Source of the DNA: Polycladomyces zharkentensis
GTDB lineage: Bacteria; Bacillota; Bacilli; Thermoactinomycetales; JIR-001
Direction: 5' to 3'
Assembly (NCBI RefSeq): GCF_016938855.1
Contig: NZ_JAFHAP010000014.1
Coordinates: 1-64,000 of the forward strand
Length of the DNA stretch: 64,000 bases
Below, one piece after another: positions 1,775-17,682 of this stretch; the first letter of the stretch is position 1, and every line of letters starts with the position of its first letter. Both the position numbers and the translations under genes were made by a program. A model generated the notes under the pieces. That model was not told the DNA's origin. It worked only from the letters and a program-made list of their open reading frames with translations, and did not search any database.

Positions 1775-2812
1775 TTATTTGACCTCTCTAAAGTGTTGAT
1801 CAAGATCATCAACTGTTTGTACCTTTTTTATATCATATTCGTTGGGATCACAAATATAGGTCTGGTACGGAAAATATTTTAATTGTGTATCAAAGTTTAC
1901 TGAGGATACCCCTTTTTTTAGCAATACAGGATCAAAGTATTGGGCAATCAACCGAAGCTCCGTTATACCATGTTTTCTCAATTCTGTAATTAACCGAAAC
2001 AAATTTTCTTTCTCTTCTGTTGGGTTCACAGTTTTAATGACATATATACGGAGATCGTGAACATATCCTTTGTTTTCTTTCCGATATTCCTTGTAAGTTA
2101 ATACTTTATTTAGTTTAACAGCCTTTTTTTCATCTGTTTCATCGATAGCGACAGCCGATTCAATTGTTACATGTTCTGGATAGATACTTTTCACTATGGG
2201 TGTAACTTCCTCTGTTGATTGTTTTACCCATAATCTTTGAATATAACCATCCACAATCCCATAAACTTCATCTTTCGTCACCGGAAAAAACAGTTTTGGA
2301 TCATCAGCAGGATGAACAACTAATTGGTACGCTCCCGTCTGCCAAATGTACTTCTCCTGATCCACCACAAACTTCTTATGATACTTTTTTTCCAGATAGG
2401 ATTGAACTTCCGATTTGATGCTGGGTGCTTGTTGTTGCATACCCATTTGAAGAGGGGAGAACAAAGCTGTTCCAAGCAGATAGGCAATTCCATAATGCAA
2501 CAGATAAGCTACAACTGTAGTGACTGCAATCAAAACCCATGGTCTCTTTTTACCTTCGGTATCTTCTGTTTCATCCAAATCATGTTTGGCTCTTTTCTCC
2601 TTTATAATCGCAAATACGAATGCATCTATAATACCAATAACCCAAATACTGTTATATAGAAGGTTCATTTTTCCCAACGCTAAAATATTTAATACTGCCA
2701 GAATTAATTGGATCACCACAAAGATGAACCCTTTGATCTTTTGTCGATTATAGATCTGACCAATCCCCGGATAAACAATGGAGAGCACAGTGGCTAAAAT
2801 CACGTTCTTCAA
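1775..2812 (-). CDS. four-helix membrane protein with large C-terminal soluble domain
   Basis: The product has 345 residues. The start is TTG at 2812, chosen because GGAGG sits 7 nt upstream and the preceding gene ends at 2825. The N-terminal motif PGIGQIYN, followed by a helix, resembles the opening of TM2/DUF5683-like small membrane domains. Hydrophobic segments lie near residues 4-18, 29-48, 53-72 and 93-118. The remaining 220 residues are soluble, rich in Lys/Glu/Tyr, and match no family I can name. It sits between the pilin-lipase and VWA copy 1, so a role in the Tad envelope apparatus is inferred from position only. Confidence 0.75.
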   Translation of the reverse strand: MKNVILATVLSIVYPGIGQIYNRQKIKGFIFVVIQLILAVLNILALGKMNLLYNSIWVIGIIDAFVFAIIKEKRAKHDLDETEDTEGKKRPWVLIAVTTVVAYLLHYGIAYLLGTALFSPLQMGMQQQAPSIKSEVQSYLEKKYHKKFVVDQEKYIWQTGAYQLVVHPADDPKLFFPVTKDEVYGIVDGYIQRLWVKQSTEEVTPIVKSIYPEHVTIESAVAIDETDEKKAVKLNKVLTYKEYRKENKGYVHDLRIYVIKTVNPTEEKENLFRLITELRKHGITELRLIAQYFDPVLLKKGVSSVNFDTQLKYFPYQTYICDPNEYDIKKVQTVDDLDQHFREVK

Positions 2813-2824
2813 TGCTAAGCCTCC

Positions 2825-4015
2825 TCATCTTGGCATTAGGTTTTTATCTGGGCTCCCGCTGAAATAGGGTGCAAAACCTTTTAGTGGATGTCTGCTGTAA
2901 GTGGATGGTGCTGTAAACAACAAATATGTTGAGCTGTCTTTTAATGTTTCAAGATACGACCGGTCATTCTTCTTGGTAATAGATCCGTCATATCCAATCT
3001 CATACTGTGAACCCTGTGGTTTTACTCCGAATTCGGAAACCATGTCACCTGATAATGTATAGTTTCGAATCTGATTGGAGTAATCTTTGCTCATCTGTTC
3101 CTTGGTCATATTGGGATTATCATCACCGGTTTTAAAAGGATTTCTTCCATGAACAAGATCATTAACCACATCAAGTACTACCTTGCCTCGTGCAATGGGA
3201 TTTGGATTAGCCATATCTATCGCCATTTTCCCTGCACTCTTATGAGGCATTTCACCCGGGCCACTAAAGCCAACTGCAGGTAAATTTTCTTCCATAGCCT
3301 GATGTTGGGCTATGGCCATTCCCAACGAATGCCCTGAATGAACAAACGATTTTGCTTTCCCTCCATGTCTACGCTTCACAAAATCTGTAAATTTCTTCGC
3401 ATCATTAAATTGTGGGTTTTGGCGTTCAAAAACCAAAGTTGCATCAGCTACAATGTCTTTCTTATCATCTGTACCTCTGTGTACTACTACTATTTCTCCC
3501 GTTTTCTGATTCTTAAAAGCTATTCCATGATATCCTGTTTTCGGATTGTCATATGTCTCCAATACATCCCATTCTTTACCACCGTTTAATATTTTCATCG
3601 CTAGTGCGTATTGTCGCTTTTCATCCTCATCTTTTCCTGGATCAAACTTAAAATCCCCTTTGTAATCATAATATGATAAAGTACATAAAGCATAAAACTC
3701 TGCATCGGATGTCTTTACTCCTTTTAGATCCTTTGGCCAATTGGGTTTGCTTGGTTTATTGCCACTAGAGCCTTTATGCAATGGCCCTTTTACAGCAATC
3801 GGCTGCTGTTTAATGGGCACCGGTTCACCTCTTAATATCTTAGCAACAGTATTTTGTACAATTGAAGCACCGTCATCTTTTAGAGTCAAATAAAGTACAG
3901 TGGCTAAAACAATGGCTCCTAACAAAATTACCACATATTCCAGTGTGGATCCACCGGATCGATCTGTAAAACACTTTCTGATGCCCGACATTAGTCTCTT
4001 TATTCCATGCCCCAT
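2825..4015 (-). CDS. Flp-type prepilin N-terminus fused to a class 3 lipase-like domain
   Basis: The product has 396 residues. Residues 19-27 (RSGGSTLEY) and the following hydrophobic stretch reproduce the class III prepilin signal of the flp product at 6477: cleavage is predicted after Gly21, with Glu26 at mature position +5. After a Pro/Lys-rich linker (60-100) comes an alpha/beta-hydrolase of the lipase class 3 type. It has an oxyanion-like HRGT at 179-182, a nucleophile elbow GHSLG at 228-232 with Ser230, and plausible triad partners Asp324 (GDMVS) and His376. Prepilin peptidase processing would place a hydrolase in or on the pilus, or tether it to the membrane. Substrate is unknown; lipids or esters are likely from the family. 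The gene follows the TadE-like gene with a 34-nt gap. An alternative is a membrane-anchored lipase that borrowed only a TM helix. Confidence 0.85.
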   Translation of the reverse strand: MGHGIKRLMSGIRKCFTDRSGGSTLEYVVILLGAIVLATVLYLTLKDDGASIVQNTVAKILRGEPVPIKQQPIAVKGPLHKGSSGNKPSKPNWPKDLKGVKTSDAEFYALCTLSYYDYKGDFKFDPGKDEDEKRQYALAMKILNGGKEWDVLETYDNPKTGYHGIAFKNQKTGEIVVVHRGTDDKKDIVADATLVFERQNPQFNDAKKFTDFVKRRHGGKAKSFVHSGHSLGMAIAQHQAMEENLPAVGFSGPGEMPHKSAGKMAIDMANPNPIARGKVVLDVVNDLVHGRNPFKTGDDNPNMTKEQMSKDYSNQIRNYTLSGDMVSEFGVKPQGSQYEIGYDGSITKKNDRSYLETLKDSSTYLLFTAPSTYSRHPLKGFAPYFSGSPDKNLMPR

Positions 4016-4049: not shown

Positions 4050-4436
4050 TTATCTCACAATCGGAGCCTCAGCAGTTTGATCGTAATCAAACGGATTGGA
4101 TGACATAAACAATACATCAATCTTTGTGTGTGCTTTGGCTACCACTTTATCCTCATAAAATGTAATATCGAATTGGCTGAGACGGTAAAATCCGGACCCG
4201 CCAAAAGAGGCTTTCCCTTGTTGAATGGCTTTTTCTTTATCACCTGTAACTGACGCCACGCGAACCGCATCTCGTAACGCTGCTTGTGTATCCATAATAG
4301 CTAATCCGGCAATCGCAAACTGAAATACAAAAAAAGCCATCATCAAAAAGAGGGGTAAAATGATGACAAATTCAACGGTGGAACCACCACTGCGGTGTTG
4401 ACGGCTAAACTTCACAACCTTTTTCATCCACTTCAT
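4050..4436 (-). CDS. tadE: TadE-like minor pseudopilin
   Basis: The product has about 128 residues. I chose the second ATG (4436) because GGGAG lies about 9 nt upstream; 4442 is also possible. It has a basic N-terminus, then the motif RSGGSTVEF and a long hydrophobic helix (IILPLFLMMAFFVFQFAIAG), which is the TadE/class III prepilin layout with Glu at mature +5. A soluble tail of about 75 residues follows. TadE-type pseudopilins are cleaved by the Tad prepilin peptidase and help pilus assembly at the membrane. It lies directly after the TadG-like gene (14-nt gap) and before the pilin-lipase. Confidence 0.8.
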   Translation of the reverse strand: MKWMKKVVKFSRQHRSGGSTVEFVIILPLFLMMAFFVFQFAIAGLAIMDTQAALRDAVRVASVTGDKEKAIQQGKASFGGSGFYRLSQFDITFYEDKVVAKAHTKIDVLFMSSNPFDYDQTAEAPIVR

Positions 4437-4456
4437 GGTCATTCTCTCCCGCGAGT

Positions 4457-5041
4457 TTAATAGTTGATTTCAATAGATTTCTCCGGCAATAATTTTAAGT
4501 ACAGCCGACTGGGGCCATAACCTGTTCCCTCGATATATCCACTTACATAATCCCAGTCCAATGGTTCATATTTCTTTCGCGCCTCTACCTGAATCCGCCC
4601 ATAAACAGGAAAGATAATTTTCCCTTTGCTATCCCCTCCATTTTTCACTACATAATAACGAACCGTGTTGGCGATCTCATCTCTGTGCTCATCCAATATA
4701 AACTGAACAAACCTCTCTTTGATGACAGGATTGGATAACAGTTTATTCATGATTTGTTCCATCTTCTTTTCGTTATTCAGATCATGTTCTGAGTCTTTTA
4801 GTTCATCGGGGATCGGGATGGCTTCGTTTTTTAGGAAGGGGAAAAAATCTGCCATGATGAGTTCATCCAATTTCTTGGTCGCTGCCAAACTCCCTGCATC
4901 AGCAGCGACCTGAGCAGAGGAGTGGGTAGCCCAGGCCAGCATGGCGCTTCCCATAAAAAGTGCTAAAATGATGAATCCGGGGAGGATCGCTACCCAAGCC
5001 ACTGTGACATTTCCCCGCTGATCTGTCAACTTCTTAAACAT
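4457..5041 (-). CDS. TadG-like pilus protein (TadG N-terminal domain)
   Basis: The product has 194 residues. AGGAGG lies upstream of ATG 5041. The N-terminus DQRGNVTVAW plus a hydrophobic helix matches the short TadE/G-like N-terminal region, but the prepilin Glu+5 is replaced by Ala15, as expected for TadG-type proteins that are anchored rather than polymerised. The next stretch (HSSAQVAADAGSLAATKK) is the classic helix after the TadG membrane segment. The soluble domain is shorter than proteobacterial TadG and carries no VWA domain. In this locus the separate VWA lipoproteins may supply that function, which is inference. Confidence 0.78.
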   Translation of the reverse strand: MFKKLTDQRGNVTVAWVAILPGFIILALFMGSAMLAWATHSSAQVAADAGSLAATKKLDELIMADFFPFLKNEAIPIPDELKDSEHDLNNEKKMEQIMNKLLSNPVIKERFVQFILDEHRDEIANTVRYYVVKNGGDSKGKIIFPVYGRIQVEARKKYEPLDWDYVSGYIEGTGYGPSRLYLKLLPEKSIEINY

Positions 5042-5095: not shown

Positions 5096-6415
5096 CTATT
5101 TGCGCTTTTGATTGATTTGGTTTTGCGCATCTTCATATTGGTTTCTTGACTCACCATACCTATCAACAGCGTTTTGCCCTATCTCATCTATAAGCTGTCC
5201 ATGCTTTTTCACAATGTAGTCATGAATTAAATTTGATCTATCTTTAATAAATTGTTCCAGTGACGGAACATCTGATACTTTCTGTTTTGTAACTAAATAT
5301 TCTTTAGCATCCATAAAATGGTTATATTCAATATCTACTTTATTCACTCCATCATTGAGCAGTTTACCTATAGCATCTAATTTTTTACTTGTTTGCTGAC
5401 CAACATCATTTGTATCTTTTGACAACCACTCACCCCATTTTTTGCTTAATTCATCATACTGTTTATTAAAATACGCTTTTAGATCCTCTTGATTGTTAAC
5501 CGTATAATAGGTTCCCCCACCGGACTGGGCCACTTGCTGAAGTGCTTTTTGACCCGCATTGTCTACATCGAAACCGATAATATTGACAACTGCTTTGACG
5601 TTGGAGTTATGTAGTTGTTGTGCCTCCTGCACCGGATTTCCTTCACAAGTTTCAACGCCATCACTTACGATATAGATAATGTTTTCTGCATTTGACTGTG
5701 CGCTTAAATCTTGTTGGGCAGAACGAATCGCCAATGCCAAAGGTGTCCATCCCGTCGGTTGAAATTGGTTAAGCGAGCTTTGGAACTTTTGGTTATCGTA
5801 TGCTCCCAGGGGGTACACCACTTCAGAGCTATTACAGGAGATGGCTTTATCCTTGTTTTGATTACTCCCTTTGTGCCCATATACACGAAGTGACACGTTG
5901 GCACCTTGTGGCATCGAAGCAACAAATTGATTGATGGCTTCTTTGGCAAGATCCATCTTTGTTCGCCCATCAATTTGTTCAGCCATACTTCCACTAGAAT
6001 CCAGGAGAATCTCAATATTCACTTTCTTATTCAACACGCCTGGTGTTTTAATGCTACCTTGAGGACCAACTGGTTTACTAAAGCCAGTATCAAAGTTGTT
6101 CATCTTTGGTATGATTGGATTATAGTCCTCAGCCAGCAATGCCACCAAATAATTGTATAATTTCTCAGGTGGTAGATTTGGGGGGACTTTGTCCAATGCC
6201 GCGTATACTTTCTGTTTGTCGTACTTACTACCACCATATATACCAGGGCCTTGCTTCACTATCCCATCTATTGTTGTTGCCGCTTTTGGTGCTGTAGTCG
6301 GAGTCAGTTCGCTTTTTCTTTCATTCTCTTGATTTGATCCTTTGCTCGATAAGGGTTGTTGGGAACATGCTGCTAATAAAATAAGAGATAACAATAAGGC
6401 GATCATTTTTTTCAT
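5096..6415 (-). CDS. VWA-domain lipoprotein, copy 2 (YwmC/YwmD-like)
   Basis: The product has 439 residues. The signal peptide ends in LAAC with lipid Cys17. The VWA domain spans about 132-325 with metal-binding DSSGS at 139-143 and Asp in VSDG near 252. Across about 205 residues of this core it differs from copy 1 at only about ten positions, whereas the last 105 residues share perhaps a third. It lies between the flp pilin gene and the TadG-like gene, the more typical place, so it is probably the ancestral copy. It is presumably an outer-membrane-leaflet lipoprotein working with the Tad pilus; its ligand is unknown. Confidence 0.85.
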   Translation of the reverse strand: MKKMIALLLSLILLAACSQQPLSSKGSNQENERKSELTPTTAPKAATTIDGIVKQGPGIYGGSKYDKQKVYAALDKVPPNLPPEKLYNYLVALLAEDYNPIIPKMNNFDTGFSKPVGPQGSIKTPGVLNKKVNIEILLDSSGSMAEQIDGRTKMDLAKEAINQFVASMPQGANVSLRVYGHKGSNQNKDKAISCNSSEVVYPLGAYDNQKFQSSLNQFQPTGWTPLALAIRSAQQDLSAQSNAENIIYIVSDGVETCEGNPVQEAQQLHNSNVKAVVNIIGFDVDNAGQKALQQVAQSGGGTYYTVNNQEDLKAYFNKQYDELSKKWGEWLSKDTNDVGQQTSKKLDAIGKLLNDGVNKVDIEYNHFMDAKEYLVTKQKVSDVPSLEQFIKDRSNLIHDYIVKKHGQLIDEIGQNAVDRYGESRNQYEDAQNQINQKRK

Positions 6416-6476: not shown

Positions 6477-6701
6477 TTAGCTTTTGATTTGGTTAAAGAC
6501 ATTTTGAATTTTTTGCTGCAGGAGACTCTGACCTCCCCCATTTTTAACGTAATTATACAATACTCCGGCCAATGCCACCGCAGCGGCCAATACGACCACA
6601 TACTCAACCGTAGAACCACCTTTACGATCAATCAGCACTTTTTTGAACGCTTCTTTTACGTCTTCCACAGCATGAAATCCTTTGGCCATCCATTTGTTCA
6701 T
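6477..6701 (-). CDS. flp: Flp-type major pilin
   Basis: The product has 74 residues, the usual Flp size. AGGAGG precedes the ATG. A 28-residue basic leader ends in DRKG, then GSTVEY and a hydrophobic stretch (VVVLAAAVALAGVLY). Cleavage is expected after Gly28, leaving Gly29 at +1, Glu33 at +5 and Tyr34. The mature peptide would be 46 residues, typical for Flp filaments. It is encoded after tadC and before VWA copy 2, with an intercistronic hairpin immediately downstream. It is the only complete Flp-like pilin in the locus. Confidence 0.88.
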   Translation of the reverse strand: MNKWMAKGFHAVEDVKEAFKKVLIDRKGGSTVEYVVVLAAAVALAGVLYNYVKNGGGQSLLQQKIQNVFNQIKS

Positions 6702-6783: not shown

Positions 6784-7710
6784 TTAAAAACCTCCTCCTT
6801 CATTGTAAAAGAATTTCAAAGCAAAGCTCCCTAGAATGATTAACATAATCGATGGCGCAATAATCAAACCGCCAATAATGGATATTTTCGGTTCCGCTTT
6901 CCCGGCGGCTTCCTTCGCTTTTTCGGCTCGCATCCTTCTCATTTCTTCGGATTGCTGTGCAAATGTTTGGGAGATGGGCGTTCCCAAACGATGGGCTTGA
7001 ATCAGCGACTGGATCAGTGCTTCCAGCTCGGGTGATTCCGTTCGTTGCAACAACCCCCGATAAGCCGCCTCTCTCTGAACACCAAAATGAATTTCCTGAA
7101 GCATTCGCTTGATCTCTTCACTCAAAGGTCCCTTAGTGGTTTGAACATAATATTCCAGAGCCGTATCCATCCCCATCCCGGCCTGCAAGGTAATACTCAT
7201 CATATCCAAGAAGTCAGGTAATTCATATTGAATCTCTTCCTGCCTTTTCTTGGCCAAGGATCGGATATGAAATATCGGAGCCATATAACCCAAAATGGGG
7301 CCAAAAACCAGCAACATCGGTGCCAATGGCAGTCCCAGTAGGAAGTAGAAAAATCCAATAATCGCTCCTGCCATTGCTCCCACGATCTTGGCACCTTGCA
7401 ATTGTTTCAACGTCAACCCGTACGGATAATTGGCCTTGATCAAATAATCTTCCAACTCAATCGGGTTGCTGAACAACTGAATTTTTTCCCCTACGGGAGC
7501 AAAATGATCAAACCAACCGACTAACCAATCCCACTTATTATGATTGGTTTGGGCATCCAGCTGAGTAATTTGCTCATCTGACAAATACTCGTTGATTTCC
7601 ACCTGTTGTTTCCGGTACTGCACATAGTAATAGCCCGCAATCCCTACGAAAACCCATGCGGCAAACACCAGTATCAACAGGATCATATGCTGATCCATCC
7701 TCAGCCACAT
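6784..7710 (-). CDS. tadC: TadC-like inner-membrane platform protein (T2SSF domain)
   Basis: The product has 308 residues. The N-terminal helix (MILLILVFAAWVFVGIAGYYY) is followed by a cytoplasmic region, a pair of helices (about 115-155), the T2SSF/GspF domain containing the conserved QAGMGMDTALEYY type segment, and a C-terminal helix (IIGGLIIAPSIMLIILGSFALKFF). It would form the membrane platform with TadB under the CpaF ATPase. The stop of tadB lies 2 nt upstream, so the two are translationally coupled. An alternative start is the second Met, 12 nt in. Confidence 0.85.
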   Translation of the reverse strand: MWLRMDQHMILLILVFAAWVFVGIAGYYYVQYRKQQVEINEYLSDEQITQLDAQTNHNKWDWLVGWFDHFAPVGEKIQLFSNPIELEDYLIKANYPYGLTLKQLQGAKIVGAMAGAIIGFFYFLLGLPLAPMLLVFGPILGYMAPIFHIRSLAKKRQEEIQYELPDFLDMMSITLQAGMGMDTALEYYVQTTKGPLSEEIKRMLQEIHFGVQREAAYRGLLQRTESPELEALIQSLIQAHRLGTPISQTFAQQSEEMRRMRAEKAKEAAGKAEPKISIIGGLIIAPSIMLIILGSFALKFFYNEGGGF

Positions 7711-7712
7711 CC

Positions 7713-8639
7713 TTACACACGGATATCGGAGATCTTCCGAACCAACAGCACCCCGATCACCTGTAATCCGACAAACAGAGCAAATATGATCATGCCCGGG
7801 ATCGTGGTAAATAGGTTATAAAATCCGTCAATCATCTTACTCAACATAAAAACGACCAGTACCGATATCAAAGGCAAGCTATAAGCCGAGTATCTGGCTT
7901 GAGAAGTGACAGCTAAAATATTTTGGTGAATGATCTTCCGCTCCTCCATCGTGTTGGCCATCTCGCTCAACACCTTGGCCAGGTCGCCCCCGGCCCGACG
8001 CTGGATGATCAGTGCATTGACAAACACTTGGATGTCCTTGCTGTGAACCCGTTTTAAGAAATCGCGTAAAGCTGCTTCCAAATTTCGACCCAGCTGCACC
8101 TCTTTGACGACAATTCCCAGCTCTTTGCTGATCGGGGCTGGCATTTCCTTCACCACCAGCTCCAATCCTTGTGGAACGGACAATCCCGCTCTGGCGGCGC
8201 TGCTCAACAAGCGGCATGCTTCCGAGAGCTGGGCATTGATCCGGTTGACGTAGATATGCTTGCGCGAACTGAGGAAGAACTTGGACCCGATGGGCACCAA
8301 AGGTACAGCGATCAGAATGCCGACCGGCCACGGTGCGCCCAGTCCGATCTTTAAGATGAATGCAATGCCCAATCCCGCACCGAACAAGATCGCCATGTAA
8401 TCGGACGGGTCCATGTCCAAGCTGGCTTGCTCCAGCTGGGGACGAAGCTTCTTGCCGAGATTGGAGTTGTCCAGTTTTTTGGAAAGGGAGTCGGACCAGC
8501 TTTCGGAGTCACCCTCCGTCTGATGCACCCACTCCCCCACACGCTCCAGCACTTCCTGTTTTTGCTGTCTGGCCATCAGGGCGTAGTAGACAGCCCAGAC
8601 CGCACAGGCGACCGCTCCCGCTCCGAGTAATGCGATCAT
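7713..8639 (-). CDS. tadB: TadB-like inner-membrane platform protein (T2SSF domain)
   Basis: The product has 308 residues. Its ATG overlaps the cpaF stop (ATGA at 8636-8639), so expression is coupled. It has an N-terminal helix, two central helices (about 85-125) and a T2SSF domain with RAGLSVPQGLELV and QRRAGGDLAKVLSEMA, ending in two further helices. Together with TadC it makes the heteromeric Tad platform. Codon use is GC-richer than in genes below 7.7 kb, so the compositional shift begins around here. Confidence 0.87.
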   Translation of the reverse strand: MIALLGAGAVACAVWAVYYALMARQQKQEVLERVGEWVHQTEGDSESWSDSLSKKLDNSNLGKKLRPQLEQASLDMDPSDYMAILFGAGLGIAFILKIGLGAPWPVGILIAVPLVPIGSKFFLSSRKHIYVNRINAQLSEACRLLSSAARAGLSVPQGLELVVKEMPAPISKELGIVVKEVQLGRNLEAALRDFLKRVHSKDIQVFVNALIIQRRAGGDLAKVLSEMANTMEERKIIHQNILAVTSQARYSAYSLPLISVLVVFMLSKMIDGFYNLFTTIPGMIIFALFVGLQVIGVLLVRKISDIRV

Positions 8640-10003
8640 CGGGCATTGCCTCCTCTGACCGGGGTGAAGATTTTCGGGTCCACTGCGTTGCCGTAGGCTT
8701 TGAGTCGTTGCAGGCAGTTGGGAAGGATGCCGGTGGCGGTATGATAACCCTGGACCGTCCCTTCCTCGTTCACCCCTGTCTGGTTGAACCGGAAAATTTC
8801 CTGCATCTCCACTTTGCCGCGCTGGTCCTTTTTGATCTCCGCGATGGAGAGCATTTTCCGCTGACCGTCAGGCAGACGACCGATCTGGATGATAAAGTCG
8901 ATCGCGCCCACCAGGTATTCCCGGATAATGGCCGGCGGCAGGTCGGCGGAGGACATCATCACCATCGCCTCAAGACGGTTGATCGCATCTTCGGGCGAGT
9001 TGGCGTGGACGGTGGTCAACGACCCTTCGTGACCGGTGTTCATCGCCTGCAACATGTCGAACGCTTCGGCTCCCCGCACCTCACCGACGATAATCCGGTC
9101 GGGCCGCATCCGCAGGGCGTTTTTCACCAATTGGCGGATGGTGATCTCCCCTTTGCCTTCCACGTTGGCGGGACGAGCTTCCAACCCGGCGACGTGTCCG
9201 TGGGGAATACGGAGCTCGGCCATGTCCTCGATGGTGATAATCCGTTCGTTTTCCGGGATGAAACAGGCCAATGCGTTCAACAGGGTCGTTTTCCCGCTGC
9301 CCGTTCCCCCTGAGATAATGATGTTCAGCTTGGATTTGACGACACTGGCCAGGAACGTGGCCATCTCGGGCGTCAAGCTGCCGAAGCCGATCAGGTGCTC
9401 CATCCGGATCGGGTCTTTGCGGAATTTCCGGATGGACAACAGCGAGCCTTTCAAACTGATCGGCGGGATCACGGCGTTCACCCGGCTGCCGTCAGGGAGA
9501 CGCGCGTCCACCATCGGTGAGCTGACGTCGATCCGTCTGCCGAGCGGTGCCACGATCCGGTCGATGACGTGCCGCAGAGCCTCTTCGTCACGAAACTGGA
9601 TATCCGTCTTGTACAAGCGCCCCTTCTTCTCGTAGTAGACTTCGTAGGGGCCGTTCACCATGATCTCGGTGATCTCGTCGTCTTCCAGCAGAGGTTCGAG
9701 CGGACCGTATCCGACCGACTCGTCGATGATCCGCGTGATGAGCCGGTCCCGTTCATGACGCGGGATCACCACTTGTTCATCGGCCAAATAGCGTCCGATC
9801 AACCGGTCGAGTGTCACCCGCAACTCGGCGGACGGCATCTGGGTCAGCTTTTCGAGGTCCGTCTCACGCAACAAACGGGCTTTGAAGTGCTGTGCCAATT
9901 GTTCGATGCGTGAGTTTTCCTCAGTAGACCGACGCGATTCGGAACGGCGAGGTGTCCGGGTGGGAGCCGGTATGGATTTGTTGCTTCGTTGAAACAAGGA
10001 CAT
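8636..10003 (-). CDS. cpaF: Tad secretion ATPase (CpaF/TadA family)
   Basis: The product has 455 residues. AGGAGGG lies 8 nt before the ATG. It has an N-terminal all-alpha region (30-100), the CpaF N-domain with DDEITEIMVNGP, Walker A SGGTGSGKT at 231-239, then the Asp-box/Walker B region IIVGEVRG and the His box TTVHANS typical of type II/IV secretion ATPases. It powers pilin extraction and polymerisation from the cytoplasmic face of TadB/TadC. The length fits the family. It is followed by tadB with a 4-nt overlap. Confidence 0.93.
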   Translation of the reverse strand: MSLFQRSNKSIPAPTRTPRRSESRRSTEENSRIEQLAQHFKARLLRETDLEKLTQMPSAELRVTLDRLIGRYLADEQVVIPRHERDRLITRIIDESVGYGPLEPLLEDDEITEIMVNGPYEVYYEKKGRLYKTDIQFRDEEALRHVIDRIVAPLGRRIDVSSPMVDARLPDGSRVNAVIPPISLKGSLLSIRKFRKDPIRMEHLIGFGSLTPEMATFLASVVKSKLNIIISGGTGSGKTTLLNALACFIPENERIITIEDMAELRIPHGHVAGLEARPANVEGKGEITIRQLVKNALRMRPDRIIVGEVRGAEAFDMLQAMNTGHEGSLTTVHANSPEDAINRLEAMVMMSSADLPPAIIREYLVGAIDFIIQIGRLPDGQRKMLSIAEIKKDQRGKVEMQEIFRFNQTGVNEEGTVQGYHTATGILPNCLQRLKAYGNAVDPKIFTPVRGGNAR

Positions 10004-10017
10004 TCGCTCGTCCCTCC

Positions 10018-11193
10018 TTACGACGCCGATTTATCCGCATTTTTGCCCAGAAGAACACCGGCCAGCTTTTGCACATCGCGGGCAAACACCGGCAGACCGC
10101 GCTCTTTGCGGGATTTGCGGATGGGTTTGCCGCGGTTGATGAACTGCTGAATTTTCTTGGCATCTTCGTGCAGTTCCCCGATCACCGGGTATGGGAAATG
10201 CTCGCGCACGTCTTTTGCCGAAATTTCACTGTCCCGACTGATCCGGTTCAAAATCAGCTCAAATCGATCCGTCGGGTCTACACCGATCTTGTCGAACAGA
10301 TCCAACACCCGGCCCAACGTACGCATGGCAGGCGCATCAGGCGTCAGCACGTAAAAGAGGTGATCCGCTTCTTCCAACGCCGTATACGACAACGTGGTCA
10401 TCTCCGTCGGCAGATCCACCAGGATGTAGTCGTAGTACAGGCGAGCCGCCCGCAGGACACGCTCCACATGCTCCTCGGTGATCTGCTCCGCGATCTCCGC
10501 ATCAGCCGGGCTGGCCAACAGCTCCACCTGGGAGTTGGGTTCCACCACCGTGACGCTCCGGATGTGGTTGTCGTTCAGCTCATTCAACACCGGGGTGAGG
10601 TCATACAAGGAACGGTCGCTGGTCACGTTCATGTAGGTTTCCAATCCCCCGTACTGGAGGTTGAGATCCACCAACAGCACCCCGGCAGTGGAGTCCAACT
10701 GCAGCGTCTGGGCCAACGTTGCGGCGATCAGGCTGCGACCGCTGCCTCCCTTGCCGCTGTAGAATGTGATGACGTTCCCCCGTCCCCAGGTGAATGCGGT
10801 TGCTGTATCCCGCTTCACGTTTTTCTCCTGCAACACTTTGACCGCCCGGTTTAACACGTCTTCCAGCGCAGTGATTTCATCCGGCAAGAAAAGGATGTCA
10901 AAAGCGCCGGAACGGTTGGCGTCCCGTGTGCGGATCGGGTCGCGCCGCTCGGTGAGAAAGACGACGAGGGCATCCGGCACTTCCCGTGCGATGTAGGGCA
11001 ACAACTGAAGTCCCATCCCGTCTTTGGTCTCGTGCAACACGACCAAGTCGGGTTGCAGACGGGAGATCTCCCGGCGCACCTCTTTGGGCAGGATGTGCAG
11101 AAACTGGGGGAAGGTTTGTCCCACCCGATTGCGGATATCCTCCGCTTGTGTATGATCCTCCGTCACAACAAGTAATTTCGCATCAACGGCCAT
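10018..11193 (-). CDS. cpaE: CpaE/TadZ-like ATPase with degenerate receiver domain
   Basis: The product has 391 residues. Residues 1-120 fold like a response-regulator receiver, but the usual phospho-acceptor position after PDLVVL reads His-Glu instead of Asp, as in many TadZ/CpaE proteins. Residues 138-390 are a MinD/ParA-type ATPase with the deviant P-loop SGKGGSGRS (146-154), where the signature Lys148 is kept but the second P-loop Lys is Arg153. DLNLQYGG and DLPTEM supply the switch regions. In other species the protein localises Tad machinery, often to a cell pole. It lies 14 nt upstream of cpaF. Confidence 0.85.
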   Translation of the reverse strand: MAVDAKLLVVTEDHTQAEDIRNRVGQTFPQFLHILPKEVRREISRLQPDLVVLHETKDGMGLQLLPYIAREVPDALVVFLTERRDPIRTRDANRSGAFDILFLPDEITALEDVLNRAVKVLQEKNVKRDTATAFTWGRGNVITFYSGKGGSGRSLIAATLAQTLQLDSTAGVLLVDLNLQYGGLETYMNVTSDRSLYDLTPVLNELNDNHIRSVTVVEPNSQVELLASPADAEIAEQITEEHVERVLRAARLYYDYILVDLPTEMTTLSYTALEEADHLFYVLTPDAPAMRTLGRVLDLFDKIGVDPTDRFELILNRISRDSEISAKDVREHFPYPVIGELHEDAKKIQQFINRGKPIRKSRKERGLPVFARDVQKLAGVLLGKNADKSAS

Positions 11194-11229: not shown

Positions 11230-11952
11230 TTATCGCTTCGCCTGTTTTCCTTGGGTTTGTTTGCCGCTCTTGTCACTGCCCGTTTGAGGAGACTCGCCGT
11301 CCCCGTCTCCCTCTTCGCCACCGGAAGAGAAGCTTGGCTGCTCATTTTGCGGCGCCTTCAACACCCGAATCGAGGTGGCAAAGTTTTGGTAGTTGATCAG
11401 TTTGGCCGCGTCATCCAACGGCAGCTCCACCCAGATCGCTTTTTGCTTGTCCGCCACCTGCCAAACCGGTACGCCTTTCCATTCGACGGTTGTCGTGCCG
11501 TTCTTGTCATCCTTGGAAACAGTGATGAGAATGTCCACTTTGTCCTGCGCCGTCAACGGAACATCAAACCCGACCCGCTCCGAAGCGGAGAGCTGAACCA
11601 ATCGGTGATTGGAGTCCGTCAGGTCGGTTGCCATTCTTAAAACATTATTGGTGAGCAATTCCCCTTCTTTCAAAGCAATGACTGAAACTTTTCCCTGTAC
11701 TTGGTTGATATTTTGTACGACGGAAGACTTGATCTTCTCATAGTACGCTTCCGGGATTTGCTCTTCCTTAAAGAAATCGGGTCTCAGCGGTGTCAGCTCA
11801 TTGATGGGGCGTGCTGCCACATAGACCGTCCGCATGCCTCCCAATTGCCCCTGCACCGCATTGACTTCCTGCAAAAACAAGATCCCGGCCATCCCGGCCA
11901 AAACAACGGAAATGACGGTAAAAATAATGGCTCTCCGTTTTGCATCCTGCAT
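11230..11952 (-). CDS. cpaB: CpaB/RcpC-like SAF-domain pilus assembly protein
   Basis: The product has 240 residues. One N-terminal membrane helix (about 8-28) is followed by an SAF domain (about 42-105) containing the typical AARPINELTPLRPDFF segment. A second beta-rich region ends near 200, and about 40 residues of Gly/Ser/Lys-rich tail follow. In Gram-negatives CpaB/RcpC helps the secretin. Here, without an outer membrane, it may contact peptidoglycan or the pilus channel; that is inference. It is the first gene after the internal promoter at 12038-12066. Confidence 0.8.
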   Translation of the reverse strand: MQDAKRRAIIFTVISVVLAGMAGILFLQEVNAVQGQLGGMRTVYVAARPINELTPLRPDFFKEEQIPEAYYEKIKSSVVQNINQVQGKVSVIALKEGELLTNNVLRMATDLTDSNHRLVQLSASERVGFDVPLTAQDKVDILITVSKDDKNGTTTVEWKGVPVWQVADKQKAIWVELPLDDAAKLINYQNFATSIRVLKAPQNEQPSFSSGGEEGDGDGESPQTGSDKSGKQTQGKQAKR

Positions 11953-12077: not shown

Positions 12078-13418
12078 TCATAACTCTCTTTTTTTCGACA
12101 TGGATTTCCTTTTCCAGCGGGCGAATACGACATCCAACCATCTTTTCACAGGGTAGTTATGGTAGAAGTTGTACAACGTCACCGCCAGCATCACCCACGG
12201 CATGAAATAGATGCCGAGGATGACAAAGACGATGACCGATCCGATGCGACGAATCCGTTTGCTCAGCCATTCGTCCGCCAAGGCCAGATCGGAATGCGGG
12301 GTGCCGTGACGGATCAGGCTTTGGTACATCTTGTACTTGGGCGTCAACGCCGAGGCAATGTAGAAAGCCGGCAACAGGAACAAAAACACCCGCGCGCCGA
12401 CGGTGGCGTCGACAAACAGGCTGTAGATCGCCAATGCCCAGACGATGCCGATGGACAGCTTGCTGCCGGTGAACAGGCGGGTACCCTCTTTCTCCACCTT
12501 TTTCAGCGTCTCGCGCAGGCTCTGCCGCAACTGGGGGTTGTCGAACCGCAGTGCCAATGCTTTGCTCAGGTAGCGCAGGGCAGTGCGGTACTGCTGATAG
12601 GTGGTGGGGTATCGTCCCTCCGCCATCATCGGGTGACCGGCGGGCACTTCGGTCCAGCTGTAGTAGGCTTTGGCCTGGTAACCGAGCGCCAGGCTCTCCT
12701 GGTATGCCGGATTGTCCGGTTCGGCTTGCACGCACTGTTCCAGCAGTGCCAACCCCTCATCGAATTGCTCCGTTCGGATCAGCGCCATGCCGAGGACGAC
12801 CCGGTACTGATGATTGTCCGGGTCCGTTTGGCTGGCACGCCGGTACTGGGTGACGGCTTCCTCCCAGCGGTTCAATTGTTCCAAGGTTTGGCCGAGACCG
12901 TAGTAGTACCGTCCGTCATTGGGTTTCAGCTCAATCGCCCGCCGGAACGCTTCCACTGCCTGTTCCGGTTCGCCCCACTCCTTCTTGGCGTGGGCCAGCA
13001 GTGCCCATGCGTCGGGGTTGTGCGGGTCCTGCTCGGTGGCTTGGCGCGCGAGGACGATCGTATCCGCCACCCGGTTTTGCTCCAACAGTTCCGTTCCCCG
13101 GGAAATGATGGTTTCCACCGGAGTGACCGTACCGGTTCCCGTCCGGGAGGCAGTGGATGCCTGTTCCCGGCGTGCAGACGTCTGGAGGCGGGAAGCGGCG
13201 GCCAACTGCCGGTCATAGGCCGCCCGCTTGTCAGGGTCGAGCAAGATTTCCTCCGCTTCCTCCAGCAGCTGCACCATCCGCTCCGCCTCTTGGCGGCGCT
13301 CCATCTGCGGGGCGTTGGTTCGGTTGCTCCATTTACGCAGTTCCTGGTGAATCCGTTTGCGGATTTCCCCCTCGTCCGCATCGCGGGGAATCCCGAAGCG
13401 TTCGTAGTAGTTTTCCAT
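12078..13418 (-). CDS. J-like TPR membrane protein with degenerate J domain
   Basis: The product has about 446 residues. ATG 13418 was chosen over an upstream TTG because AAAAGGG lies 9 nt before it. Residues 1-70 resemble a J domain (NYYERFGIP at the start, DPDKRAAYDRQL at the end), but the HPD tripeptide is missing; the corresponding loop reads KWSNRTN. Residues 110-300 carry several TPR units (NPDAWALLAHAKKEWG, GRYYYGLGQTLEQ and others). Two to four hydrophobic helices follow near 315-350 and 385-415. It sits next to two Hsp70s and GrpE, so a membrane-tethered Hsp70 scaffold for pilus assembly is inferred. Without HPD, classic ATPase stimulation is doubtful. Confidence 0.8.
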   Translation of the reverse strand: MENYYERFGIPRDADEGEIRKRIHQELRKWSNRTNAPQMERRQEAERMVQLLEEAEEILLDPDKRAAYDRQLAAASRLQTSARREQASTASRTGTGTVTPVETIISRGTELLEQNRVADTIVLARQATEQDPHNPDAWALLAHAKKEWGEPEQAVEAFRRAIELKPNDGRYYYGLGQTLEQLNRWEEAVTQYRRASQTDPDNHQYRVVLGMALIRTEQFDEGLALLEQCVQAEPDNPAYQESLALGYQAKAYYSWTEVPAGHPMMAEGRYPTTYQQYRTALRYLSKALALRFDNPQLRQSLRETLKKVEKEGTRLFTGSKLSIGIVWALAIYSLFVDATVGARVFLFLLPAFYIASALTPKYKMYQSLIRHGTPHSDLALADEWLSKRIRRIGSVIVFVILGIYFMPWVMLAVTLYNFYHNYPVKRWLDVVFARWKRKSMSKKREL

Positions 13419-13460
13419 CGCCAACAACCCTTTTCTGTTTCAAAATGCCGAAGGTGCGCC

Positions 13461-14984
13461 TCAGCCGATGGCCAGTTTGCCGAGGCGTTGTTGTTTTTCC
13501 GCCACTTCTTCTTCGGTCAGGTTGGAGACGCGCTCGATCTTCAGCTCACCCAACCGCTGGCCGGCGGTCAAATCGACGACGGAGACGTGGATGATCCCGT
13601 CACGGTCGTACTCGAAGATCACTTCCAACGGCGAACCTTTCGGACGCGGCGGCAGATCCATCACGCCTTCGCCCACGATCTTCACGTAGTTGAGGTCGGT
13701 GTCCTCTCCTTCCGTCACCTGCACATGAAGCTGAGTTTGGTTGTCCACGCTGGTGACGTAGCGGCCGCTCACCTTGCACGGGATGGGGGTGTCCTTTTTC
13801 AACACGATCGAGTTGACTTCCCGGTCGTGTTCGTCCAAGGCGACGACACCCAAACTGTGGGAGTTGACATCCTGCACCTCCACGATCGGGAAATCCGCCG
13901 CTTCGTGCAATTGGGCCGTGCCCTGTTGCACCTGGATCAGCGTGCCCTGAATGGCCGCTCCCATCGCCACCACTTCGTCCGGGTTGACGTCCATCGACGG
14001 TTTGATCCCCGTCACGCGCTCGATCATGGCCGGAACGGCCTTCATGCGAGTGGATCCGCCGACGAGCAGGATCCTGTCGATATCCTTCCACTGCATGCCC
14101 GCATCTTCCAGTACAAACTCCATGATGCTCTGCGTCTGGCGCAACAGATGGCGCGTGATCGTCTCAAACGTTTCGCGTGTCAGCGTGATGGAGGCGGTCA
14201 CCCCGCCGGCGGAGAGAAAGACGTTGGTCTTTTCGCGCGAGGAAAGGGTGCGCTTGGCCATCTCCGCTTTGTCGCGCAGATCCTGTTCCATCACCGGGTC
14301 GTCGAACAGATTGGGGCCGCCTTGTTTTTGAAACTCCTCATTCAGATACTTCATGATCTCGTTGTCCCAGTCGAAGCCGCCCAGGTTTTTCGCCCCGCCG
14401 GTGGCGACCACCTCGATGCGCTCTCCGTTCAAACGCATGATGGTAACGTCAAACGTGCCGCCGCCCAAGTCATAGACGAGGATGGTCTGCTCTTCTCCCA
14501 CCTTGTTCAGCCCGTAGGCGAGGGCGGCCGCGGTCGGCTCGTTGATGATGCGCAATACATTGAGCCCCGCGATTCGTCCGGCGTCCAGCGTCGCTTTTCG
14601 CTGCGCGTCATCGAAATAGGCGGGAACGGTGATGACGGCATCCCGGATCTCCTCGCCCAGGAGCATTTCCGCATCTTCTTTGAGCCGTTTCAAAATGATG
14701 GCGGAAATGTCCTCCGCGTTGTAAATCTCGCCGGTCTCCGTGCGGAACTTCCAGGATTTCACGCCCATCTGCCGTTTGGCAAACTGCACGACGTTGAGCG
14801 GCGACATCACCGCCGACCGTTTGGCGATACTGCCGACAATCGGCTCGTTGCCCTCAAACAACACGACGGAGGGGGTGATGCGTTCCCCCTCGCGGTTGAC
14901 CAAAATCTCCGGCTTCCCGTAAGGGTTGACGACGGCGATCGCCGAGTTGGTCGTGCCGAGATCGATGCCCACAACCTTGCTCAT
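13461..14984 (-). CDS. Hsp70/DnaK-like chaperone lacking the C-terminal lid, copy 2
   Basis: The product has 507 residues, about 100 fewer than housekeeping DnaK. The nucleotide-binding domain is complete: GIDLGTTNS at 6-14, VYDLGGGTFDV, and LLVGGSTRM. The beta-sandwich substrate domain is present (PIPCKVSGRYVT, VTEGED). It stops shortly after LTEEEVAEKQQRL, where the helical lid would begin. The interdomain linker reads FPIVEVQDV instead of the usual LLLDV pattern. It follows copy 1 with a 43-nt gap. It is presumably a pilus-dedicated chaperone; the true DnaK is expected elsewhere in the genome. Confidence 0.88.
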   Translation of the reverse strand: MSKVVGIDLGTTNSAIAVVNPYGKPEILVNREGERITPSVVLFEGNEPIVGSIAKRSAVMSPLNVVQFAKRQMGVKSWKFRTETGEIYNAEDISAIILKRLKEDAEMLLGEEIRDAVITVPAYFDDAQRKATLDAGRIAGLNVLRIINEPTAAALAYGLNKVGEEQTILVYDLGGGTFDVTIMRLNGERIEVVATGGAKNLGGFDWDNEIMKYLNEEFQKQGGPNLFDDPVMEQDLRDKAEMAKRTLSSREKTNVFLSAGGVTASITLTRETFETITRHLLRQTQSIMEFVLEDAGMQWKDIDRILLVGGSTRMKAVPAMIERVTGIKPSMDVNPDEVVAMGAAIQGTLIQVQQGTAQLHEAADFPIVEVQDVNSHSLGVVALDEHDREVNSIVLKKDTPIPCKVSGRYVTSVDNQTQLHVQVTEGEDTDLNYVKIVGEGVMDLPPRPKGSPLEVIFEYDRDGIIHVSVVDLTAGQRLGELKIERVSNLTEEEVAEKQQRLGKLAIG

Positions 14985-15027
14985 CGCTTGTCCACTCCTT
15001 CATCCGGTTCCATCCGGTTCTCTCTTT

Positions 15028-16572
15028 TTACAACCTGACTGAATCCAGCAGCCGTTTCCGTTCCTCCAACACGTCTTCGGACAGGCTGTTCGTTTTCTGC
15101 ATGACGACTTCGCGCGTTTTCTGCCCGCTCTTCAGTTCCTTGGCCACCACTTCGATCACGCCGTCGGCGTCATAGCGCAGCGTCACCTCGATCACCAGCT
15201 CCCCGGCCTTATGCGGGGGCAGGTTGCGCAAGCCCGCTTTGCCGATCAGCTGCACATTGGGGGAGTTGGGATCTTCGTCCTCTCCCTGCAACACCTCGAT
15301 CTCCACCCGCGGTTGGTTATCCTCGCCGGTGACGTAGGTACGGGTCCGTTCGCAGGGGATCGGCGTGTGTTTGGGAATGATGATGCTGTTGACATAGCGC
15401 GTTTTGTCCGAGGACAGGGCCTTGACGCCCAAACTGTGGGACGCCACGTCCTGAACGACGATGTCTGCGGCCCCATCCAGCGGCGGTGCGAATTCCTGCT
15501 CCCCTTTTTCCATCATGGAAACGACCGCCTGGATCGCCGCGCCCATCGCCACACATTCGTCCGGGTTCATGTTGCGTGCCGCATCCTTGCCGGTGACGCG
15601 CTTGATCATCTCCTTCACGGCGGGAATCCGGCTGGAACCTCCGGCGAGCAGAATCGTGTCGATCTGGTCCCACGTCAAACCGGCCGACTGGATCACCCGT
15701 TGCATGCAGACTTCCGTCCGGGCAATCAAATCGAGGGTCAACTCCTCAAACAGCTCCCGGTCGATATCCACCCGCAACGCTTTGTCCCCGGTGGCCAGCG
15801 TGACGGCCAATTGGTTGCGGAAGGAGAGATCCTTTTTGGCAATCTCCGCCTTGTCCCACAAATCCTGCAAGGTGTGCGGTTCCTGGCGGAGATCCATCCA
15901 GTAGGCCCGCATGAATTCCTCCGCGAAATAATCGACCAACCGCTCGTCAATGTCCTTGCCGCCCAAGTGGGAATCCCCGTCGGTGGCCAGGATGGTGAAG
16001 CGTTGCCCCTCGACTCGCATCACCGTCACGTCAAACGTCCCGCCGCCGAAGTCGTACACCAAAATGGTCTGGTCGCCCTCGGCCTTGTCCAACCCGTAGG
16101 CGAGCGCGGCCGCGGTCGGTTCGTTGATGATGCGGATCACATCCAGTCCGGCGATTTTGCCCGCTTGGCGGGTGCACTCGCGCTGGGCGTCCTTGAAGTA
16201 GGCCGGCACGCTGATGACGGCTTTGTTCACCGGTTTGCCCAAATAGGCTTCCGCGTCCGCCTTCAGTTTTTTCAGGATCAATGCGGAGAGATCCTCCGGG
16301 AAATAGTCCTGTCCGTTCACATTGAAACGATAGGAGGGATTCCCCATCTCCCGTTTGATGAAACGAACCGCCCGGCGCGGGTCCACCAACGCCTGATGGC
16401 GCGCTTCCTTGCCTACGATCGGGGTACCGTCCGGTTCGAAAAAGATGACGGACGGAGTGGTCCGATCCCCTTCGCGGTTGGGAATCACCTCCGGCTTCCC
16501 GTATGCGTTGACGTAGGCGATCGCCGAAAACGTCGTCCCCAAATCGATCCCGACAATCACTTCTTCACTCAA
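15028..16572 (-). CDS. Hsp70/DnaK-like chaperone lacking the C-terminal lid, copy 1
   Basis: The product has 514 residues. TTG 16572 is preceded by AAAGGAG about 10 nt upstream. Nucleotide-binding motifs are intact (GIDLGTTFS, VYDFGGGTFDV, LLAGGSSRI). The substrate-binding beta domain is present and the protein ends near LSEDVLEERKRLLD, so the lid helices are absent. The linker region reads IVVQDV. It is clearly a paralogue of the next gene, and the pair may work as a heteromer or serve different clients. It lies 42 nt after the GrpE-like gene, probably in one operon. Confidence 0.88.
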   Translation of the reverse strand: MSEEVIVGIDLGTTFSAIAYVNAYGKPEVIPNREGDRTTPSVIFFEPDGTPIVGKEARHQALVDPRRAVRFIKREMGNPSYRFNVNGQDYFPEDLSALILKKLKADAEAYLGKPVNKAVISVPAYFKDAQRECTRQAGKIAGLDVIRIINEPTAAALAYGLDKAEGDQTILVYDFGGGTFDVTVMRVEGQRFTILATDGDSHLGGKDIDERLVDYFAEEFMRAYWMDLRQEPHTLQDLWDKAEIAKKDLSFRNQLAVTLATGDKALRVDIDRELFEELTLDLIARTEVCMQRVIQSAGLTWDQIDTILLAGGSSRIPAVKEMIKRVTGKDAARNMNPDECVAMGAAIQAVVSMMEKGEQEFAPPLDGAADIVVQDVASHSLGVKALSSDKTRYVNSIIIPKHTPIPCERTRTYVTGEDNQPRVEIEVLQGEDEDPNSPNVQLIGKAGLRNLPPHKAGELVIEVTLRYDADGVIEVVAKELKSGQKTREVVMQKTNSLSEDVLEERKRLLDSVRL

Positions 16573-16614
16573 GATCGGTACGCTCCTTTCCCAAAATGTC
16601 TTGAAACGGACTGT

Positions 16615-17220
16615 TCATCTTTCCACCAACGACATGGACGACGACCGATACCGCTTCACGATCACTTCCTCCGGTCGCAGCACCGTGTCCCGATACAGAA
16701 ACCCGTGCCGGACCACCCTGGCTACCCGGTTGTTCTCCGCCGGATCATCCGTGGGCTCCACTCCGATCGCATGCTGCAGTCGCGGGTCGAAGACGTCGGA
16801 ACCCGTACGCAACAGCTGAACCTCCCGACGGTAGAGAATCTCCAGCACCTCGTCCCTGAGCGTGTCCAACAGACGAGCAAACGTGCGCCCGACCTCCGAG
16901 TCGGTATCAATCTCCCGACTCATGTTATCCAACCGGTCAAACAACAGGATCAGATCTATGTATAATGGCTTGTTTTGCCGAAACGCCGCATCCTGCTTCA
17001 GTTCTTCCAGCTCGGCATACAGGCGGTCGAACGCTTCTTCTTTGGTTTTGTCGTAGCGGATCCGTTTTTCGATGATATGATTGAGCGAGGAAAATTCCTT
17101 GTTCAAATGGGTCAGGGAAGCGAGGAGTTGTTGAAGCGTGTGTTGGTCGGATTCGGTTTTGCCCGCGGAACGGTTCTCCTGCCAAAACCAGTGTTTCCCG
17201 GTTCGTTGTTTGTCTTTCAC
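16615..17220 (-). CDS. GrpE-like nucleotide exchange factor
   Basis: The product has 201 residues with a GTG start behind GGGAGG. It has a long N-terminal coiled coil (about 30-130) and a C-terminal beta domain with the GrpE signature pattern (HAIGVEPTDDPAENNRVARV, then RHGFLYRDTVLRPEEVIV). It would release ADP from the neighbouring Hsp70s. It is divergent from housekeeping GrpE and sits 18 nt after the prepilin peptidase gene. Confidence 0.8.
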   Translation of the reverse strand: MKDKQRTGKHWFWQENRSAGKTESDQHTLQQLLASLTHLNKEFSSLNHIIEKRIRYDKTKEEAFDRLYAELEELKQDAAFRQNKPLYIDLILLFDRLDNMSREIDTDSEVGRTFARLLDTLRDEVLEILYRREVQLLRTGSDVFDPRLQHAIGVEPTDDPAENNRVARVVRHGFLYRDTVLRPEEVIVKRYRSSSMSLVER

Positions 17221-17238: not shown

Positions 17239-17682
17239 TCAAAATAGATACAACACGTATGTGACGAGAGTTCCGGTAAAAATGAAAGGTGCCATCGGCA
17301 GTGTCGATTTCCAGTCTGCCTTTCGGCTGAACAGTTTCATCGGAATCGCCACCAAGGCCGCCAAAACGTGGGAGATAAGGAAAATGACGAAAAATTTCTC
17401 CCAGCCGACACATAAACCAATCATTGCAAAGAGTTTGATATCTCCCCCGCCGATGGCGGTCGCCCCGGTCAACGCTCCGATCGTCGCCAGCACGAACAAC
17501 ACGCCGAAACCGGTGAGCAGGTAGTCCCACCACGGCTCCACCCGGTACCAGAGGCGAAACATGATGGCAAACGCCGCTCCGACCAACACGACGCGGTCGT
17601 AGATGAGCCGCTCGCGCAGATCGGTGACGCTCGCAATCCCGGTCAAGATCAACAACACGATAAAAACAATATGTTCCCCCAC
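17239..17682 (-). CDS. cpaA: Tad prepilin peptidase (A24 family, CpaA/TadV)
   Basis: The product has 147 residues with a GTG start. It is a short, membrane-only A24 peptidase without the methylase domain, as in TadV/CpaA. Both catalytic aspartates are present: Asp21 in TDLRERLIYD and Asp81 in GGGDIKL. Several hydrophobic helices cover the length. It should process Flp, the TadE-like protein and the pilin-lipase. It is the first recognisable gene of the locus, with a promoter candidate about 200 nt upstream. Confidence 0.88.
   Translation of the reverse strand: MGEHIVFIVLLILTGIASVTDLRERLIYDRVVLVGAAFAIMFRLWYRVEPWWDYLLTGFGVLFVLATIGALTGATAIGGGDIKLFAMIGLCVGWEKFFVIFLISHVLAALVAIPMKLFSRKADWKSTLPMAPFIFTGTLVTYVLYLF

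Follow-up and report, generated by a model that had tools for sequence, protein, structure and literature searches.

The DNA analysed here, called the window, is a stretch of 64,000 nucleotides from a contig of Polycladomyces zharkentensis and contains a gene for a predicted prepilin-lipase, P0001, and all of a complete Tad operon, both encoded by the minus strand. The first half of the operon encodes, in this order, an A24 peptidase, a GrpE-like protein, two Hsp70-like proteins, a J-domain/TPR protein, a CpaB/RcpC-like protein, TadZ, TadA, TadB and TadC. Behind TadC follow Flp, a vWA lipoprotein, a TadE/G-like protein, TadE, the lipase, P0006 and a second vWA lipoprotein. A gap of 34 nt separates TadE from the lipase gene, and an AAGGGG Shine-Dalgarno-like sequence lies immediately 5' of the ATG of P0001. 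The features needed below are:

1775..2812, minus strand: P0006, candidate immunity protein with membrane helices and an extracytoplasmic domain
2825..4015, minus strand: P0001, predicted prepilin-lipase toxin of 396 aa (open reading frame, Pfam/NCBIfam, alignment, AlphaFold2 model, structure search)
3953..4015, minus strand: prepilin leader, residues 1-21, predicted cleavage after Gly21 (G^GSTLEY motif common to Flp and the other toxins)
3821..3952, minus strand: Flp-like pilin module, residues 22-65, hydrophobic helix with Glu at +5
3716..3820, minus strand: low-complexity linker, residues 66-100 (low pLDDT, outside the lipase structure alignment)
2846..3715, minus strand: class-3 lipase toxin domain, residues 101-390
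3326-3328, 3044-3046 and 2888-2890, minus strand: codons of Ser230, Asp324 and His376, respectively
4050..4442, minus strand: TadE minor pilin (Pfam TadE, E=2.1e-9)
4457..5041, minus strand: TadE/G-like minor pilin (Pfam Tad, E=7.1e-6)
6477..6701, minus strand: Flp pilin (motif and Pfam)
6784..8639, minus strand: TadC and TadB (T2SSF)
8636..10003, minus strand: TadA ATPase (T2SSE)
10018..11193, minus strand: TadZ, with ParA-like ATPase domains, named from its position and family
11230..11952, minus strand: CpaB/RcpC-like protein with SAF domain
17239..17682, minus strand: A24 prepilin peptidase, presumed processing enzyme (Pfam Peptidase_A24, E=2e-17), one of two A24 peptidases in the genome

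The TadE of the window has no M23 endopeptidase. Five genera, Paludifilum, Marininema, Kroppenstedtia, Laceyella and Polycladospora, have in their Tad operons a gene for a TadE-like minor pilin that ends in an M23 cell-wall endopeptidase (L132:14573-15379, L139:13195-14028, L136:14598-15428, L143:17833-18684 and L137:17460-18320).

A prepilin module joined to a lipase domain

Residues 18-27 of P0001 read DRSG^GSTLEY, and the Flp pilin of the same operon has RKG^GSTVEY. The leader is basic and ends in Gly21 (Gly at -1), and a hydrophobic helix follows the Glu at +5. These are the features of class III (type IV-like) prepilins of the Tad/Flp type. The N-termini of Flp and P0001 are 40% identical over 58 residues (E=1.8e-7), and the module spans the entire length of Flp, beyond a mere signal. 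The class III motif close to that of Flp (GGSTLEY versus GGSTVEY, Glu at +5), which an earlier note had pointed out from the letters of the window, is borne out. A profile of the module, searched against the whole 3.3-Mb genome at E<=1e-5, found only Flp, TadE, P0001 and three further long proteins. As all three of these bear toxin domains, a chance occurrence of the prepilin motif was ruled out.

For the C-terminal part the earlier note had proposed a linker followed by a class-3 lipase-like domain with GHSLG, Asp324 and His376, and structure prediction as a check. Both the alignment and the model agree with this proposal. The GHSLG motif (residues 228-232, nucleophile Ser230), Asp324 and His376 are invariant across 23 homologues. 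The AlphaFold2 model of P0001 has a mean pLDDT of 74, with values above 90 through much of the hydrolase core, and forms a nucleophile elbow from strand 223-229, Ser230 and helix 231-243. Residues 102-383 of the model match class-3 lipases, with Thermomyces lipase (1gt6) at Z 17.4 over 210 residues and 3.0 A; a lower-ranked match is the type VI secretion lipase effector 9cys (Z 12.1). As modelled, the C-terminus of P0001 carries a GXSXG elbow and a predicted Ser-Asp-His triad on a class-3 lipase fold. Sequence profiles were less sensitive: the Pfam family Lipase_3 stayed below its cut-off for P0001 (E=0.39, 11 bits versus 22) and passed it for the relative L009 (E=1.4e-5, 25.4 bits), and partial matches were found to the NCBIfam lipase families SA1320 and Rlip. 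The PDB sequence search with P0001 gave no useful match, whereas the structure search succeeded. Lipase toxins of this kind tend toward (D/N)GNI..R at the extreme C-terminus, whether their predicted export tag is the prepilin module or a Sec signal.

One module, many toxins and their probable immunity genes

A search of the window genome with P0001 as query returned two other long proteins, which have the N-terminus alone in common with it. One carries PT-TG and a deaminase domain of the BURPS668_1122 family, the other is an EndoU nuclease with a weak PT-TG match. In total, the genome encodes four prepilin-toxins, namely the lipase, the deaminase, the EndoU nuclease and a WHH nuclease. In 42 genomes of the order, the module profile detected 62 long proteins in 17 genomes, which combine the same prepilin module with different C-termini; a few of the 62 (e.g., L100:3425, L103 and L105) seem to be incomplete or disrupted, and they enter the count as proteins with the module without being taken for intact toxins. 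For six toxins the gene finder had placed the start at an internal Met, and the full Gly/Glu motif lies upstream of it. Gly at -1 and Glu at +5 are retained in nearly all 62 proteins. Pfam assigned PT-TG to 14 of them, Colicin-DNase/WHH to 10, and AHH, EndoU and the MafB19 deaminase to two each, whereas RNAse_A_bac, Endonuclea_NS_2, Tox-GHH, CdiA_C, Toxin-deaminase and Amidase_6 were found once.

When pairs of these proteins were compared, the N-termini were mostly 86-100% identical and the likeness then fell suddenly to background. Two Paludifilum lipases have their first 60 residues in common, with 146 identical nucleotides counted from the ATG, and in other pairs the divergence sets in after roughly 270-390 similar residues. 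On contig C7 of the window genome, an array of orphan toxin fragments and immunity genes lies 3' of the EndoU prepilin-toxin and its downstream gene (L033:7997-10623). It includes an orphan deaminase cassette, in which about 105 residues are identical to the toxin on contig C13, together with a related immunity gene, and a WHH fragment followed by an SMI1/KNR4-like gene, assigned to the SUKH type by eye.

Genes for a type I signal peptidase and for one or two Yip1-domain membrane proteins lie just upstream of stand-alone prepilin-toxins (L032:3652-4907, L033:3745-5678 and L040:6642-7750; also in L035, L036, L038, L039 and L041). This pair perhaps serves toxin release.

In the available DNA, 59 of 61 relatives have a downstream gene on the same strand, in 47 of the 59 within 100 nt (median 18 nt). 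Most of the toxin genes thus have a probable immunity gene close behind them. Among the downstream genes, SUKH was matched 10 times and Imm11 twice, in addition to Imm1, Imm22, Imm70, YezG, CdiI_ImmP, CdiI_4 and CdiI_2. A membrane or lipoprotein segment was predicted for all nine lipase-linked genes that were inspected, versus one of the 46 other downstream genes, and this sole exception stands behind a cell-wall amidase toxin. The predicted compartment of the immunity proteins fits the target of the toxins.

P0006 follows the lipase gene after 12 nt, and its Shine-Dalgarno sequence overlaps the lipase stop codon (ATGAGGAGG). Every prepilin-lipase whose contig extends further is followed by a gene of the P0006 type, and two loci have tandem copies of it, two or four in number. 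Lipases with a Sec signal are followed by lipoprotein genes instead, with about nine copies at L045, and the P0006 family and the family of these lipoprotein arrays have homologous extracytoplasmic domains (hhalign 99.3%, E=6.7e-21). From its position, the tandem copies and the homology to the lipoprotein arrays, P0006 is very probably the immunity protein of the lipase toxin. Further P0006-like copies occur on contigs C7 and C16 of the window genome, where no lipase was detected nearby; these look like orphan immunity genes. In a structure search with the model of P0006, the only clear match was 4gl6 (E 9e-8), a DUF5037 protein without an assigned role. DUF576 was matched neither by P0006 nor by one lipoprotein of the arrays, and membership of P0006 in the TilA/DUF576 family was ruled out on this ground.

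Constant N-termini with variable toxins, immunity genes directly downstream and orphan cassettes, the hallmarks of polymorphic toxins, are all found here, and P0001 is almost certainly a polymorphic toxin with a prepilin tag. The module, the variety of the toxins, their linkage to immunity genes and the co-occurrence across genomes described below are established at the level of sequence comparison.

Proposed delivery by the Tad machine and alternative explanations

Taken as a whole, we consider it probable that P0001 belongs to a polymorphic toxin-immunity system as an antibacterial lipase toxin, uses a Tad (type IVc) prepilin as trafficking domain and is delivered by the Tad machine. P0001 would be inserted into the membrane like a pilin, with the toxin domain outside, and the A24 peptidase would cut after Gly21. 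TadA, TadB and TadC would then pull it out of the membrane to become a minor, rare or tip subunit in or on the Flp pilus, and the pilus would offer the toxin to a touching cell. The lipase may attack the membrane of the target cell from outside, while siblings would be shielded by the membrane-anchored, extracytoplasmic P0006. Nuclease toxins of the same family would have to travel further, into the target cytoplasm.

With TadB at E below 1e-50 as the mark of a Tad-positive genome, module-bearing toxins occur in 17 of 27 positive but in none of 15 negative genomes of the order (Fisher p=4e-5), and within one family in six of 10 positive versus none of 13 negative genomes (p=0.002); as the genomes are related, these p-values overstate independence, and two of the Tad-negative genomes are about two-thirds complete. 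That toxin delivery depends on the Tad machine is likely in our view. Several points count against the reading as a whole. Ten Tad-positive genomes are without the toxins and many toxin genes sit away from the Tad operon. In addition, a folded domain of at least 300 residues is large for an Flp-type filament and would fit only rare or tip positions, and for the P0006 model the match to the DUF5037 protein gives no hint of an immunity function.

In other Tad loci, which were found through TadB, the same architecture recurs, a point that the earlier note had proposed to check: the Tad operons of Paludifilum and Marininema include prepilin-lipases, and those of Lihuaxuella and Marinithermofilum a Sec-signal form of the lipase. 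Since these Sec-signal forms exist, one lipase toxin can exchange its predicted export tag. As some lipases within Tad operons carry a Sec signal and not the module, Tad would not be needed for every relative.

The Sec-signal forms also agree with a simpler explanation, according to which the prepilin module merely anchors the protein in the membrane or signals its export, perhaps with cleavage by the A24 peptidase or by signal peptidase, and the toxins are released or shown on the surface without a Tad pilus. The frequent distance of toxin genes from the Tad operon points the same way, and the signal peptidase and Yip1 genes upstream of many stand-alone toxins could free the toxins from the membrane. 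However, the toxins are strictly limited to Tad-positive genomes, the module covers the full length of Flp and not just the signal, and a plain anchor would need neither the Gly at -1 nor the Glu at +5 that nearly all of the 62 proteins keep. We regard this explanation as rather unlikely.

The earlier note had suggested an enzyme displayed on the pilus. The prepilin-lipase fusion, its Tad context and the predicted catalytic triad stand, but the suggestion was too narrow, as the lipase is one interchangeable cassette among many and has a candidate immunity gene downstream. As an explanation of its own, a nutrient-acquiring or surface-modifying enzyme without any role as a weapon would go with a fold that is nearest to secreted fungal lipases and with the habit of a soil saprophyte, to which secreted hydrolases are suited; extra enzyme modules on pilins are known as well (PMC8179133). 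It is nevertheless very improbable, because the same module bears nucleases and deaminases, which are useless outside cells, one genome pairs a near-identical N-terminus with a different lipase, and the genes behind the lipases are of the P0006 type, in tandem at two loci and homologous to the lipoprotein arrays of other lipases. An effector of a type VII secretion system (T7SS) like TslA, suggested by the partial SA1320 and Rlip matches and by the comparable biology of TslA (PMC10730906), was rejected as highly implausible, as the window genome and 14 of the 17 toxin-bearing genomes lack the marker YukC/EssB and no LXG/WXG domain occurs among the domain matches of P0001 and its relatives.

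In 398 Bacillota genomes, the module profile found only one 77-aa pilin besides the window genome; the profile was built from this order, so that distant versions would be missed. On plasmids, the matches were distant ones of the Mbeg1-like or lipase kind, and none had the prepilin part. A role in anti-phage defence was dropped, as PADLOC gave no match.

Comparison with known systems and implications

The preferred reading, a Tad-delivered polymorphic toxin, places P0001 close to the CDI, Rhs, LXG, MafB and other polymorphic toxin systems (Zhang et al., 2012; PMC3482391), with which it has in common a constant N-terminal trafficking part, PT-TG, an exchangeable C-terminal toxin, a downstream immunity gene and orphan cassettes. 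It differs from them in having a class III Tad prepilin as trafficking part. The travel route is what polymorphic toxins are classified by, and the available parts of the 2012 survey and of a 2025 survey do not list a Tad prepilin among the routes: the word 'pilin' does not occur in the available text of the former, and the trafficking-domain examples given in the available part of the latter include no pilin.

TslA, a T7SSb lipase toxin with TilA immunity lipoproteins encoded in tandem (PMC10730906), resembles the present pair in its class-3-like lipase with a Ser-Asp-His triad and in the membrane-anchored extracytoplasmic immunity protein with tandem copies. However, TslA has a C-terminal LXG-like domain where P0001 has an N-terminal Tad prepilin, and here neither a DUF576 match nor, in the window genome, a T7SS marker was found. 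The likeness between P0006 and TilA is confined to gene position, topology and the presence of tandem copies.

Tad pili can kill by contact in Myxococcus, where the Kil pilus has large variable minor pilins that are implicated in the killing and the toxin is unidentified (PMC8460266, PMC12075869). In Kil, the tips lack recognised toxin domains and immunity genes and act together with a T3SS-like complex, whereas here the pilin itself bears the recognised toxin domain. For the ARC (CD38-like) toxin domain, the accessible part of a 2025 paper names Flp pilins among the fused elements, in one sentence and as an anchoring element (PMC12605009). An Flp pilin is joined to a toxin domain there too, but as a single architecture, and that part of the paper describes no family, immunity survey or Tad link. 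Modular type IV pilins, e.g., PilB of Streptococcus sanguinis, likewise combine an N-terminal pilin module with an added functional module (PMC8179133). These were searched as IPR012902 pilins and are mostly discussed as ligand-binding, whereas the Flp-type module here carries toxins with adjoining antidotes.

Polymorphic toxins that have a Tad prepilin for their trafficking module are apparently an undescribed system, although earlier descriptions may exist in subscription journals or preprints. It suggests that an adhesion pilus was turned into a toxin-delivery device, and should the Tad machine indeed carry the toxins, a very widespread adhesion pilus would double as a weapon system. This would bear directly on what the Kil pilus of Myxococcus delivers, with each toxin gene as a ready reporter, and with the module, toxin-immunity pairs can be sought in Tad-bearing bacteria by simple sequence comparison. 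More tentatively, the Gram-positive Tad pilus could be a general injector that polymerises exchangeable pilin-toxins at its tip and brings them into neighbouring cells, helped in several genera by the TadE-M23 fusions. If true, such a Tad toxin injector would be a new class of contact-dependent weapon.

The two Hsp70-like genes, the J-domain/TPR gene and the GrpE-like gene lie inside the Tad operon of the window (12078-17220, minus strand), and relatives of GrpE and Hsp70 adjoin the Tad genes in loci of Lihuaxuella, Thermoactinomyces, Polycladospora, Laceyella and Hazenella. This chaperone set might keep the toxins unfolded for export. The two vWA-domain lipoproteins (342-1667 and 5096-6415, minus strand) are similar to each other and lie on either side of the pilin-toxin part; relatives have up to four copies, as in the Hazenella locus L142.
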